A stretch of 64,000 nt of DNA from Beverwykella pulmonaria (taxonomy: Eukaryota; Ascomycota; Dothideomycetes; Pleosporales; Melanommataceae): NCBI GenBank assembly GCA_001599595.1, contig BCHH01000001.1, positions 2,327,837 to 2,391,836 of the forward strand, in the 5' to 3' direction. The position numbers and the translations under genes were made by a program. Under the pieces are notes generated by a model, which had not been told where the DNA came from, did not search any database, and worked only from the letters and a program-made list of their open reading frames with translations. How positions within the stretch are numbered: the first letter of the stretch is position 1; each line of letters opens with the position of its first letter. Of the stretch, positions 29,445-33,919 are shown in pieces.

Positions 29445-32400
29445 CTATGCTCGCTGCTTGGCCATCGTGTTGAGAGCGCTGCCGTTCTTGAACCACTCCA
29501 ATTGGCCGGCATTGAAAGTGTGAGACAGCTTGATGTCGAACTCTTTTCCGCCATCGGCAGGGTGGACGCGGAGGGTGATGGGCTTGCCAACGGCAAGTTC
29601 AGTTGCAAGCAGGTCCACCTTGTCGTTGGGGCCAATCTTCTCGTAATCGGCAGGGTCGGAGAAGGTCAGAGGAAGCATACCCTGCTTCTTCAAGTTGGTC
29701 TCGTGCTGTGATAGGGTTAGCTTAAACGTTTCGTTGTTAGGTGTACATGTGACTTACAATACGGGCAAATGATCGAGTGATAATAGCAATGCCGCCTAGA
29801 TGTCTAGGCTCCAGCGCGGCGTGCTCACGCGAGCTACCCTCGCCATAGTTCCAGTCACCAATAACTACCCATGGAATGCCATTCTTCTTGTAATCACGAG
29901 CGACAGATGGGACAGCATCGTATGAACCAGTCAAGATGTTCTTGACCTTGTTGGCCTCTCCATTGTCGGCGCTGATGGCGCCAATAAGCATGTTGTTGGA
30001 GATGTTGTCAAGATGTCCACGGTACTTCAACCAGGGTCCGGCCATGGAGATGTGATCGGTTGTAGTCTTGCCGACAGTCTTGATCAGGATGGGTAGATCC
30101 TTGAAGTCCTTGCCGTTCCAAGCCGTGAATGGCTCGAGGAGTTGGAGACGATCCGATGAGGGAGAAACGGCAACAGACACCTGAGATCGGTCCTCAGGAG
30201 GAGCCTGATAGGTGTCTTGTCCAGGGTCGTAGCCCCTGGATGGCAGACCATCACCACTGGGTGGCTTAAGCTTGAACTCCTTGCCGTCCTTGCCCTTGAG
30301 GGTGTCGGTCAGGGGGTTAAAGTTGAGGGTACCGGCAATAGTCATAGCAACGACAAGATCGGGCGAGGTAACGAAAGAGTGGGTAGCGGGGTTCGCATCG
30401 TTGCGACCGGTGAAGTTGCGGTTGTAAGAGGAGATGATGGAGTTGGGCTCACCCTTCTTCACATCGCGACGATCCCATTGTCCAATACAAGGTCCGCAAG
30501 CATTGGCGAGAACCATGCCGCCAAACTCCTCAAAGGTCTTCAACTGACCGTCGCGCTCAATGGTAGCGCGAATCTGCTCGGATCCAGGAGTGACGGTGAA
30601 GATGGACTTGGCCTTGATGCCGTGGGACATGGCGTCCTCAGCAATGGAGGCGGCGCGGGACATGTCCTCATACGAAGAGTTGGTGCAAGATCCGATAAGG
30701 CCGACCTTGAGGTCTTCTGGCCACTTGTTGGCCTTGACGGCTTCCTTGAACTTGCTGATGGGGGTTGCAAGATCGGGCGTGAAGGGGCCGTTGATGTGGG
30801 GTTCCAATGTATCGAGGTTGATCTCGATGAGCTCGTCGTACTGGGTACCCTCATCCTCGCGGAGTTCTTGGGCATACTCGCGGGCGAAGTCGCCGATTGC
30901 CGTTCGCTTGGTGGCCTTGAGGTAGTCGTACATGCGGTCGTTGAAGGGGAACAGAGATGTGGTGGCGCCAATCTCGGCTTGTTCATGCGTTAGCCCGTGC
31001 CTTATATCGTAACAACGTGGAATAACGAACCTCCCATATTACACACTGTAGACATGCCAGTAGCGCTGATAGAATTCGTGCCGGGGCCTAAATGTGATCA
31101 TGTTAGTCAATGAAGTAGAGTATGCGGTAATGCATTAACAGTGCAGTAGTCCGGCATGTAGTAGTCCAGTCCGTAGTAGTCTGTCCGATATGATGTTGTG
31201 TCCAAAAAGAGGCTCTGTGGTGGTGATTAGTTGTTGAGGCGAGCTGCTTCAGCAGCATGCCTCTTTGACATCTGGTGTCGCCTCAGTTCGGCACCTCTCT
31301 TGAAGGTATGGTTGCAGATGTCACAGTGTTGAGGGTTTTGCTGGCGCTCCACAATGGCAGCATGCCTCTTTCCGAGTAGGTGACGCCTCAGTTCAGGGCC
31401 TCTGATGAACGAATGGTTGCAGACATCGCAGTGATGTTTTTTCTCCTTCACGTTCTTGATCATGATTTTGTGATCGGTTGCCTTGCAGCTTTCAGGGTTG
31501 TTCCTCCACTGCTTGCGCCGCTGGGCGTTTTGCATCTGGCGGTAGGCCTCGGGATCAACCTCTTTAGCGTTCTGGCGATACTCGATCATGTAGTCTGCTC
31601 GCCTCTGCTTGATCACGGCTGCTTGAGCCTTCAATTGCTCGGTAGTGAGGTTGAAGTCGCCAGCAGGAAGTTCGTTCAGAGGATTGTGAGTACAAAGTCC
31701 GTCGAATTCGAGATCCTCGGTCTTCCAAGGACACATGGCAGCCATTCCATATCCGTAGTCGCTCTTAGATTGCATAGCCCAGAGGTAGAAGGCGAACATG
31801 GCTTCGAGTGACAGGATCAGGAGCCGTGTGAATGGCACCAGGCTAGCAGGCGGAATAGATGTCCAGCATAGGAGTCCTTGGTGGGCGATATCATAGCCGT
31901 CGTCAAAAGCTCTCTGAACCGCCCTGGGGACGTGAACCCCCGTGTAGTACTGAACGAGCCTCGTGGAGACACCATAGATGTGTTCTGTGCCTGAGCCAAT
32001 ATAGATTTTCGGGCGGTAACCCGGCTTCTCCAACACGATGAGATACACAGCCCACTTCCTATGAAAGTCGGACGGGAGGCCCTTGAAGTAGGCGAGGGCC
32101 GGCGGGGTAGAGGCTTTCATGACGTCGAAGAGACCAGGGGCGAAGACCAGCGAGGCGCAGTTGAGAAGCTCGTCGAGGACTTCGCGGCTAGGTAGCAGCT
32201 GAGCGAAGATTGGGTGAGGCTTACGAGACATGCAAAGGCAGGTCCATGTAAGTGGCACCACCATCCCGAGCAGGGTGTCCGCGACGAGATCCATTTCAAG
32301 ACCCTTGAGCGTATGCGTAGAGCGTTCCAAGGGACAGAAAGCGAGCGTGGAGGATGAATGACTTGACGAGAGTGGGCAGAGTACGGGTGACTCGATGTGA

Positions 32401-33919
32401 GGTAGTGAAGTGACAGAGACCAAATCGGAAGTAGCGATAAACCATCCTCCATAGAGGGCAGGTCCAAACCATGGATGACGACAGATCCAGTCCAGTGTAA
32501 CACGCGAAACATAAAAAAAAAGGGAAAGTACTAACCAAAGTATTCCACAATGGCACCGGTTCCTCCCTTGACGGTGAGGATGCCAGCAACCTTGAGGATA
32601 ATATCTAGCAATGGCGTTAGCTTGTAGTCACTCAAATGACAATTTCGCTACCCCGAAGCTAGTGGAGCAGAGCATGCGCACACGAAGGAGTCAGTATCTA
32701 GTAAACGAGAGGCAGTCGTTGCCATGATAGCAAAAGCACTTTTAGCACATACGGTGCGACTTCGCAAGGCTAGCATGATCCTTTTGGACCCTTGCCAGAA
32801 TCGCCCATCACCACATGTGCCTGTTCCAGAGCAGTAAGACTACCTCTGGCACATACAGTGGGACTTCGCAAAGCTTGCTTGATCCTCTTGACCTCTTGCT
32901 GGAATTGCGTGTATGGGCACTAGATACCAACTCCTCGTGGTGGGGAAGCTCGGATAAGAATGCACATACCTTTCGGGGTCGTCCAGCCAGAGAGCTGTCC
33001 GGTCAGCTTGACACCAATGATCTTAGGAGCCTTCAGTTCCCAAGGCAACCCAGCCATGACATCGACGGCGTCCGCACTATGAAATTGTTAGCAAGACGCT
33101 CATACATAGTGAGAGGAGGTGAGAAACTTACCCGCCAACTCCGATAGCACACATTCCCAGGCCTCCAGCATTGGGAGTGTGAGAGTCAGTGCCGATGAGT
33201 AGAGCACCAGGGAACGCATAGTTTTCGAGGATGATCTGGTGAATAATACCAGAGCCCGGCCTCCAGAAACCAATGTTGTATTTAGCGCAAGATGTGGACA
33301 GAAAGTCGTACACTTCCTTGTTGATTTCGTTGGCACGAGCAAGATCCTTCGCACCGCCAACCTGTGCCTCGATAAGATGGTCACAGTGGACTGTGGTCGG
33401 GGTGGCCACCGAGGGCATGCCTGCCGACATGAATTGGAGAATGGCCATCTGGGCAGTGGCATCCTGGCATGCGACGCGGTCAGGGCGGAGCTTGAGATAG
33501 CTGCTGCCACGCTCGATCTCCTGGCCGTGCGGGTCGTCCAAATGGGAGTAGAGGATCTTCTCAGCGAAGGCGAGCGGTCGGTTAAGACGCTTTCGCACAA
33601 TGCTAAGGTTCTCGCTCAGGCCCTTATAATCTAGTGTGGGTACAAGGTCAGCCCATGTCCGTAATTCCGTATAGCTTGTAAGATGCTACTCAAGTAGAAG
33701 CTTGTGCATAGCTTGTGGCAGAACCTAGGGTTGCTAACTTATATAATGGCCCTTTTCCCAGTTGGTCCTGTTGAAGTTGTCAACCAAAGGAACACCTCCA
33801 GAGAGGATGCGCGGCACTTACATCTCGACCTTCCTAGACAGAGGAGCATCACTGACAGTTGCCAATTGCCTGCGTCCCAGGCTCTGCCCGAGGCGGCCGA
33901 CCTTTGCAAACTTCTGCAT
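29445..33919 (-). CDS. ACO1: Aconitate hydratase, mitochondrial
   Basis: TCA-cycle enzyme interconverting citrate and isocitrate with a 4Fe-4S cluster. Eight exons: 33822-33919, 33739-33767, 33132-33630, 32970-33076, 32536-32604, 31031-31087, 29758-30977, 29445-29705; 779 aa, normal for the family. All phases match. Cluster ligands are visible in [12 protein letters not shown] and [10 protein letters not shown]; active-site segments [14 protein letters not shown] and [12 protein letters not shown] are intact. The N-terminus [22 protein letters not shown] is a mitochondrial presequence. Introns are 52-108 nt except intron 4 (32605-32969, 365 nt, with a duplicated segment) and intron 5 (31088-32535, 1448 nt, which contains a whole reading frame on the same strand). 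Intron 5 starts GTTAGTAC and ends with a CTAAC branch site and ATTTAG. Confidence 0.95.
31088..32535 (-). other. Giant aconitase intron 5 (1448 nt) hosting a nested gene
   Basis: Spliceosomal-type GT..AG intron, about 25 times the usual length here. It separates the exon ending VEYFG from the exon starting [11 protein letters not shown], and the phase (1) is kept. A T-run follows the donor closely. Three GTAGTAGTC-type short repeats lie at 31145-31185, downstream of the nested stop codon. Confidence 0.85.
31227..32294 (-). CDS. Nested GIY-YIG-like domain protein with two C2H2 zinc fingers
   Basis: 355 aa from the first clear ATG (32294); the frame stays open 43 codons further upstream but begins with TTG. 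A GIY-YIG nuclease-like core is seen: [12 protein letters not shown] (residues ~81-92), KIYIGSGT (~96-103), an Arg in VSTRLVQYY (~112) and a candidate metal-binding Glu in [12 protein letters not shown] (~164). A charged helical linker ([20 protein letters not shown]) follows. Two near-identical fingers end the protein, both C-x2-C-x12-H-x5-H (289-311 and 324-346; CDVCNHSF and CDICNHTF). I recall similar proteins, often multicopy and uncharacterised, in Dothideomycetes. The gene lies wholly in aconitase intron 5, same strand. Nuclease activity and expression are unproven; the frame is intact with all core residues, so it is not obviously a relic. Confidence 0.82.
   Translation of the reverse strand: MDLVADTLLGMVVPLTWTCLCMSRKPHPIFAQLLPSREVLDELLNCASLVFAPGLFDVMKASTPPALAYFKGLPSDFHRKWAVYLIVLEKPGYRPKIYIGSGTEHIYGVSTRLVQYYTGVHVPRAVQRAFDDGYDIAHQGLLCWTSIPPASLVPFTRLLILSLEAMFAFYLWAMQSKSDYGYGMAAMCPWKTEDLEFDGLCTHNPLNELPAGDFNLTTEQLKAQAAVIKQRRADYMIEYRQNAKEVDPEAYRQMQNAQRRKQWRNNPESCKATDHKIMIKNVKEKKHHCDVCNHSFIRGPELRRHLLGKRHAAIVERQQNPQHCDICNHTFKRGAELRRHQMSKRHAAEAARLNN
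32735..32910. repeat. Duplicated ~70-bp segment, 104-bp period, in aconitase intron 4
   Basis: The segment around 32745 (GCACATACGGTGCGACTTCG, then ATGATCC) recurs at 32849 (GCACATACAGTGGGACTTCG, then TTGATCC), including the downstream CTTGCCAGAAT/CTTGCTGGAAT. It explains most of the excess length of intron 4 (365 nt). It lies directly upstream of the small exon that precedes the giant intron. Confidence 0.7.

Follow-up and report, generated by a model that had tools for sequence, protein, structure and literature searches.

The window analysed here, 64,000 nucleotides (nt) of the genome of the ascomycete Beverwykella pulmonaria (GenBank assembly GCA_001599595.1, contig BCHH01000001.1, positions 2,327,837 to 2,391,836), contains a gene for mitochondrial aconitase, whose fifth intron holds a complete open reading frame (ORF) for a putative endonuclease. 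How did such a gene come to lie within an intron of a metabolic enzyme, and is the intron itself part of what moves? A preliminary description of the sequence had proposed that a mobile gene landed in a site where splicing hides it. We found a second copy of the ORF in an HSP70 gene of the same genome, relatives in conserved genes of several other fungi, and empty sites at the corresponding places. In our view, intron 5 is probably a spliceosomal homing intron belonging to a fungal family, and as the mobile unit the data favour the entire intron, its own donor site included, over a gene that landed in an existing intron.

Aconitase intron 5 and its nested ORF

The aconitase gene lies on the minus strand of the window, as do all window features mentioned below, and encodes 779 amino acids with its exons joined. 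Intron 5 (31088..32535), the proposed mobile unit, is 1448 nt long, with a donor site (G|GTTAGTAC) at 32535 and an acceptor (TTTAG|) ending at 31088. Its GT..AG borders, G|GTTAGTAC...CTAACATGATCACATTTAG|GCC, rejoin in frame a conserved segment of aconitase, made up of exon 5 (32536..32604, ending ..GAIVEYF G) upstream and exon 6 (31031..31087, 57 nt) downstream of the insertion. The rejoined segment aligned closely across the junction with the mitochondrial aconitase of solved structure 1c96, presumably the bovine enzyme. A branch site (CTAAC) and the acceptor occupy 31088..31108. No Rfam family matched positions 31000-32650 at E<=1, hence the intron has no group I or group II signature. This bore out the earlier designation of a nuclear GT..AG intron, which the spliceosome would remove. 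When the frame of exon 5 is read into the intron, it ends immediately at a stop codon (GGT TAG), while the nested ORF uses a different frame; the insert must therefore leave the RNA for aconitase to be produced. The other introns of the gene measure 54, 108, 55, 365 and 53 nt by their exon ends, and about 58 nt for the final one. Intron 5 is by far the longest, as had been noted, while the range of 45-150 nt given for most introns is exceeded by the fourth intron as well.

The nested ORF (31227..32294; protein P0001, 355 amino acids) starts with an ATG, runs from 32294 to 31227 in the same sense as aconitase, and is unbroken across its 355 codons. A search with its product gave 76 relatives at E<=1e-3, the best at 8e-108, which excludes a chance ORF. 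The protein consists of an N-terminal helical domain (residues 1-74; 32073..32294), kept throughout the family, a predicted GIY-YIG nuclease core (residues 80-170; 31785..32057), a linker, and two C2H2 zinc fingers. Among 34 aligned members (picked for spread from the family members then known), Tyr84 of the GIY motif and Tyr98 and Gly100 of the YIG motif were invariant (34/34 each), while Arg112 was conserved in 31 and Glu164 in 33. The catalytic Tyr, Tyr, Arg, and Glu stand in the expected order in the family alignment, which takes in both copies of this genome. In a separately chosen alignment of 16 domain pieces, Arg and Glu were present in all.

A fold search with the whole protein was dominated by the zinc fingers, and the best GIY-YIG row from the viral library had an E-value of 8.8e-3, with none at 1e-3. 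Therefore, the nuclease domain was modelled by itself. The model showed the beta-beta-alpha-beta-alpha fold of the GIY-YIG superfamily; in the structure comparison the 11 best VIA rows were I-TevI, UvrC, EndoII, and Slx1, with I-TevI as the best match. Sequence comparisons gave very little. P0001 had no match to the Pfam GIY-YIG family at E<=1, and none of the 16 domain pieces passed the cut-off of PF01541 (one reached E 0.056, the others had no match at E<=1), which was the sole Pfam family matched by any of them. In profile searches of the PDB by sequence, known GIY-YIG relatives were not found or were weak, and hhalign comparisons with I-TevI and SegG gave P values of 0.017 and 0.026, but a probability below 3%. 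No match naming the nuclease domain was obtained in NCBIfam (4 proteins) or PHROGs. Identification of the core as a GIY-YIG nuclease is thus supported by the predicted fold and the conserved residues, and hardly by sequence similarity. Finger 1 (C-x2-C-x12-H-x5-H, residues 289-311; 31362..31430) and finger 2 (residues 324-346; 31257..31325) both score under the Pfam cut-offs, and the DNA of the second duplicates the finger-1 unit in frame, with 78% similarity. The complete same-strand frame, the GIY-YIG-like core and the two fingers of the preliminary description were all confirmed with these qualifications.

The second copy in an HSP70 gene

A search of the 45.6 Mb genome with the window protein gave a single further match (C3:4303902-4304963); with another family member as query the same two loci were found, with extras at E 0.027 and 5. 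The second copy lies on the same strand within a cytosolic HSP70 gene ending in EEVD (locus L002, G000:C3:4302402-4306463). The two proteins are 36% identical and their host genes are unrelated. In the HSP70 gene, an exon ending in KRKHKK is followed by a normal-looking intron of 51 nt, a single G, the 1396-nt element GTTAGTACATTTCC...ACTAACATCGTGTAG, and then AT CTC ACC. The element also has GT-AG borders and a CTAAC branch site. A one-nucleotide exon, the G at L002:2844 between the 51-nt intron and the element, or else stepwise splicing, has to be assumed here; this was the only reading found that restores K-D-L-T in frame. No intron family was found by Rfam at E<=1 in L002, where one sub-threshold snoRNA-like match fell in an HSP70 exon. 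All three HSP70 paralogs examined are unbroken at the insertion place.

Two further observations were made on the HSP70 element. Its ORF passes the 3' splice site without meeting a stop and reaches a TAA shortly within the downstream exon (L002:1435-1448), so that only unspliced RNA could provide that stop. Between the donor site and the ORF (L002:2677-2770) there are three tandem repeats with a 28-nt spacing and CACGTG cores, possibly promoter elements.

The two large introns resemble each other at their donor ends. The donor-side 30 nt of intron 5 (32506..32535; GTTAGTACTTTCC followed by a T run) aligned with the first 30 nt of the HSP70 element with a score of 18, as against a maximum of 6 for 55 control GT[AGT]AGT sites of the window, which are sites rather than proven introns. 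At the acceptor side the likeness was not special, since 19 of 27 controls were equally good. A genome search with the shared donor motif, a pattern built from the two copies and thus expected to match both exactly, gave no third exact copy and two further places with two mismatches; a reversed control pattern gave seven. With the 1448-nt intron as query, a DNA-level search found only the intron itself. We read the donor-end similarity as a sign that the intron, at least its 5' end, travels with the ORF.

The HSP70 gene carries a further mark at the insertion. From codon 30 to codon 610 the third position is G or C nearly throughout, with 16 exceptions, and 13 of these AT-ending codons cluster in the interval 222-258, which surrounds the insertion site at codon 249 (Fisher p 1.5e-14). 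This window was picked by eye after seeing the data; in a permutation test that scans every window of the same width, the best window of 2000 permutations held 8 exceptions. The tract of altered codon usage extends about 27 codons upstream and 9 downstream of the insertion. No such tract was found downstream of HSP70 intron 1, codons 29 to 177 all ending in G or C. Eleven further intron flanks, taken from four genes of this genome with approximate exon ends, showed no consistent drop in the proportion of G or C at third positions (GC3), which ranged from 0.3 to 0.8 in 10-codon stretches; nor did the aconitase flanks show any contrast in codon usage (baseline GC3 about 0.65). The HSP70 scar fits exon co-conversion during homing, for which it is indirect support. 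Codons 30-222 and 259-610 have close to 100% G or C at third positions, and the gene ends and the element flanks are normal.

Fused gene models and empty sites

DNA was examined for the two copies of this genome; the other relatives are gene models made by annotation pipelines. Fifteen such models, from several fungi, join a family member to a host protein. Long gene models had been brought into the search with a padded query, and P0027 was added from the first homologue search. Hosts were named from the records, from Pfam lists or, for URA2, Ssb, ATP1, and the second pyruvate carboxylase (PYC), from our own reading of the sequence. They are aconitase (Pleopsidium flavum), CPA2 (five species), URA2, PYC (Pochonia and Fusarium fujikuroi), GCN1, DED1, an Ssb-type HSP70 (Alternaria), clathrin heavy chain, and ATP1 (two F. 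fujikuroi records). Together with the two copies described above, ten different genes are occupied. Host sequence flanks the element on both sides in 9 of the 15 models and on one side in 6. Fused models can reveal same-strand insertions only; evidence on sense orientation free of this bias comes from the two copies of this genome.

Mapped on this genome, the breakpoints of the models fall in very conserved motifs: MIN|YNPET of CPA2 in three species (P0078, P0084, and P0091), the homologous segment also being where the URA2 model is interrupted, YSGD..|P-KKYNL of PYC, E|WFRDNG of ATP1, CRDS|..NPEKVKN of clathrin, and KKR..|DNQQT of Ssb. In all six genes tested (the DED1 and GCN1 sites were left out), the site in this genome is continuous and free of introns. 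The P. flavum aconitase model enters the related endonuclease at the position of intron 6 of the window (30978..31030, 53 nt, NMG|AE). The preliminary description had held that a large intron present in all relatives, with no empty allele, would speak against an insertion. As far as we examined, this was not the case: an aconitase paralog of the same genome (L021) is uninterrupted at the site and reads EYFGPGVESLSS, so that the empty state is known from a paralog rather than from a sister species.

Because the empty homologous sites are continuous and without an intron, the insertion is best described as an exon acquiring a complete intron, rather than the entry of a gene into an old intron. 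This, along with the 30 donor-side nt common to the two copies, is why we take the whole intron as the mobile unit. The proposal of a mobile gene hidden by splicing was thus well supported for a mobile endonuclease in a spliceosomal intron, which can now be extended to a family, and not favoured as to landing in a pre-existing intron; mobility itself is suggested by the distribution of the family and by the footprints.

To what extent does the family keep to particular genes? A quick tree of 86 domain sequences left 40 of 82 inner branches open; it omitted 6 of 92 sequences that cover less than 70% of the domain (P0065, P0070, P0071, P0076, P0077, and P0091). For 16 rows of known host, the tree required 7 host changes, the minimum for 8 labels, while 300 shuffles of the labels gave 7 changes once, 8 twice, 9 in 86 cases, and 10 in 211. 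P0090 was excluded from this test, its domain being identical to that of P0089, and the label of P0010 comes from its name only; without P0010 the count was still 7 (that set was not shuffled). Related elements also recur in the same gene, even at the same motif, across species. On these sequence comparisons, the elements appear to be specific for target genes among conserved genes.

One F. fujikuroi model, P0089, combines ribosomal L5-family domains, ATP synthase alpha, and the family endonuclease in one predicted protein, probably through an annotation error involving neighbouring genes and the nested ORF. As to a viral or bacterial origin, one profile scan of IMG/VR contigs gave 22 pattern matches and one of genome_contigs gave 10, none of which was confirmed as a relative in either set; distant relatives are possible in both.

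Homing, its alternatives and known systems

We propose the following course of events. The host would transcribe the gene and the spliceosome would excise the intron, leaving aconitase unharmed. The endonuclease would be produced from an unspliced or a separate transcript and then enter the nucleus. There, the zinc fingers and the N-terminal domain may recognise the joined exon 5-exon 6 DNA of an empty aconitase allele, which the GIY-YIG domain would cut at mating, at hyphal fusion, or after a rare transfer between species. Repair from the element-bearing template would copy the whole intron and a short flanking exon stretch into the empty allele, and the filled allele would be immune, because the target spans the insertion point. 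The steps from splicing through cutting are what we infer, while the copying step has the HSP70 footprint in its favour.

Two observations weigh against specificity for target genes: the two PYC elements are far apart on the tree, and one CPA2 element (P0083) is at a different site within the gene. Part of the HSP70 contrast may have another cause, because the remainder of that gene is itself odd (in this genome, GC3 is 0.62-0.69 for PYC, ATP1, SSB, CPA2, and clathrin). It is also possible, and compatible with homing, that the aconitase copy is by now an inactive relic sheltered by splicing, although we think this the lesser chance. Decay after fixation is common among homing elements, a search with the window intron gave no second copy at the DNA level, and the HSP70-borne ORF runs past its 3' splice site into an exon; against decay, the window ORF is intact, with its catalytic residues and both fingers, and the duplication of the finger unit has kept the frame. 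An intron akin to a transposon or an introner, in which the nuclease serves insertion by transposition rather than homing from allele to allele, is unlikely. It would account for the occupation of ten genes, since new sites have been reached, and for the common donor-side sequence, but not readily for the presence of only two copies in 45.6 Mb with no DNA-level family, for the recurrence of related elements at the same places in different species, for insertion in very conserved motifs, or for the codon-usage scar that flanks the HSP70 site upstream and downstream.

An ordinary host gene that is inherited vertically, lies within an intron and is retained because the cell uses it would have the long intact ORF, the ATG, and the conserved family that we observed; we hold it to be very unlikely, given that the family occupies one host gene in one fungus and another elsewhere, is absent from the corresponding sites here, and is represented by two copies only 36% identical in unrelated genes. 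Even less probable is an alternative or retained aconitase exon acting in regulatory intron retention. The ORF is on the same strand within the gene, and in the output of some annotation pipelines relatives are joined to host exons; however, the frame of exon 5 differs from that of the ORF and stops one codon into the intron, and relatives of the ORF lie in unrelated genes. The most improbable origin is a mitochondrial or ribosomal DNA (rDNA) group I intron relocated to the nucleus with its endonuclease. Fungal mitochondrial group I introns do contain GIY-YIG endonucleases (PMC7487136), but the hosts here are nuclear genes, and the introns have GT-AG borders and a branch site. As Rfam matched no intron family at E<=1 in the two introns, and no group I core was recognisable, assignment to group I or group II was rejected.

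The closest known systems are the spliceosomal homing introns of mirusviruses (shintrons). These are GT-AG introns without a group I or group II signature, with nested endonuclease genes, including GIY-YIG ones, in conserved genes and with a preference for target genes (PMC12768974). The fungal introns share several properties of shintrons, namely spliceosomal GT-AG borders, no group I or II signature, a nested gene of predicted endonuclease type, and specificity for target genes. They differ from shintrons as described there in being part of a cellular nuclear genome, in having essential metabolic or housekeeping genes as hosts, in the N-terminal helical domain and C2H2 fingers of the nuclease, and in a codon scar fitting exon co-conversion. 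A literature search of titles and the start of abstracts, with poor coverage of subscription papers and many preprints, gave no report of homing endonucleases in cellular spliceosomal introns. What appears new is thus that a cellular genome contains probable spliceosomal homing introns with a nuclease family of their own; the arrangement itself is known in viruses.

I-TevI, from the td group I intron of phage T4, shares with P0001 the GIY-YIG domain and the location in an intron of a conserved gene. It also has a small zinc finger, but no C2H2 array; its intron is self-splicing, its host is a phage, and its sequence has no significant match to the fungal domain. Introners are likewise new spliceosomal introns gained through mobile elements (PMC9860276), whereas the present genome has two divergent copies, each with an endonuclease. 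They are defined as sets of introns that resemble one another within a single genome (PMC12768974); the word they here means introners. An introner was rejected here for want of a group with high nucleotide similarity: the 1448-nt intron finds itself only, and just its donor-side 30 nt or so resemble one other intron. The WHO endonucleases of yeasts are of the LAGLIDADG class, unlike the present GIY-YIG nuclease, whose element is an intron inside the gene. Like HO, they are described as nuclear homing endonucleases with zinc fingers, which target the conserved housekeeping gene FBA1 and convert host sequence; they are intein-derived, lie beside the gene, replace its 3' end, and are transcribed independently (PMC7282813). 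The nuclear rDNA group I introns of fungi and protists also hold homing endonuclease genes, but they are self-splicing, lie in rDNA, and encode endonucleases of another family, the His-Cys enzymes (PMC9548176).

More broadly, ascomycete nuclear genomes probably carry widespread and unrecognised selfish introns, which would be spliced by the host, encode a GIY-YIG zinc-finger endonuclease, and enter empty alleles of essential genes by cleaving them, in some cases in another species. The origin of new spliceosomal introns is a long-standing open question, and homing was previously associated with inteins, with self-splicing introns and, from 2025 onward, with spliceosomal introns of viruses. If our explanation is true, cellular spliceosomal introns can be gained by homing at the DNA level, with exon co-conversion as a footprint, and loss of the endonuclease would leave an ordinary-looking intron. 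With such a family in essential genes of fungi, intron gain by homing could be tested directly in culturable organisms, and new natural GIY-YIG/zinc-finger nucleases directed at conserved genes would become available. The 15 fused models also serve as a warning that models of essential fungal enzymes can be corrupted by endonucleases.

Minor observations concern the aconitase gene itself. Exon 6 (31031-31087) differs from 1c96, which has GPGVDSISCTGMATICNMG at that segment, and the P. flavum aconitase, which bears its relative at the opposite end of the exon 6 segment, also deviates from the 1c96 pattern (GPGVSSLSSTGMGTICNMG). Within intron 4 (32605-32969, 365 nt), two 76-nt copies at 32729-32804 and 32833-32908 are 75% alike; the intron also contains an inverted repeat of 33 nt.

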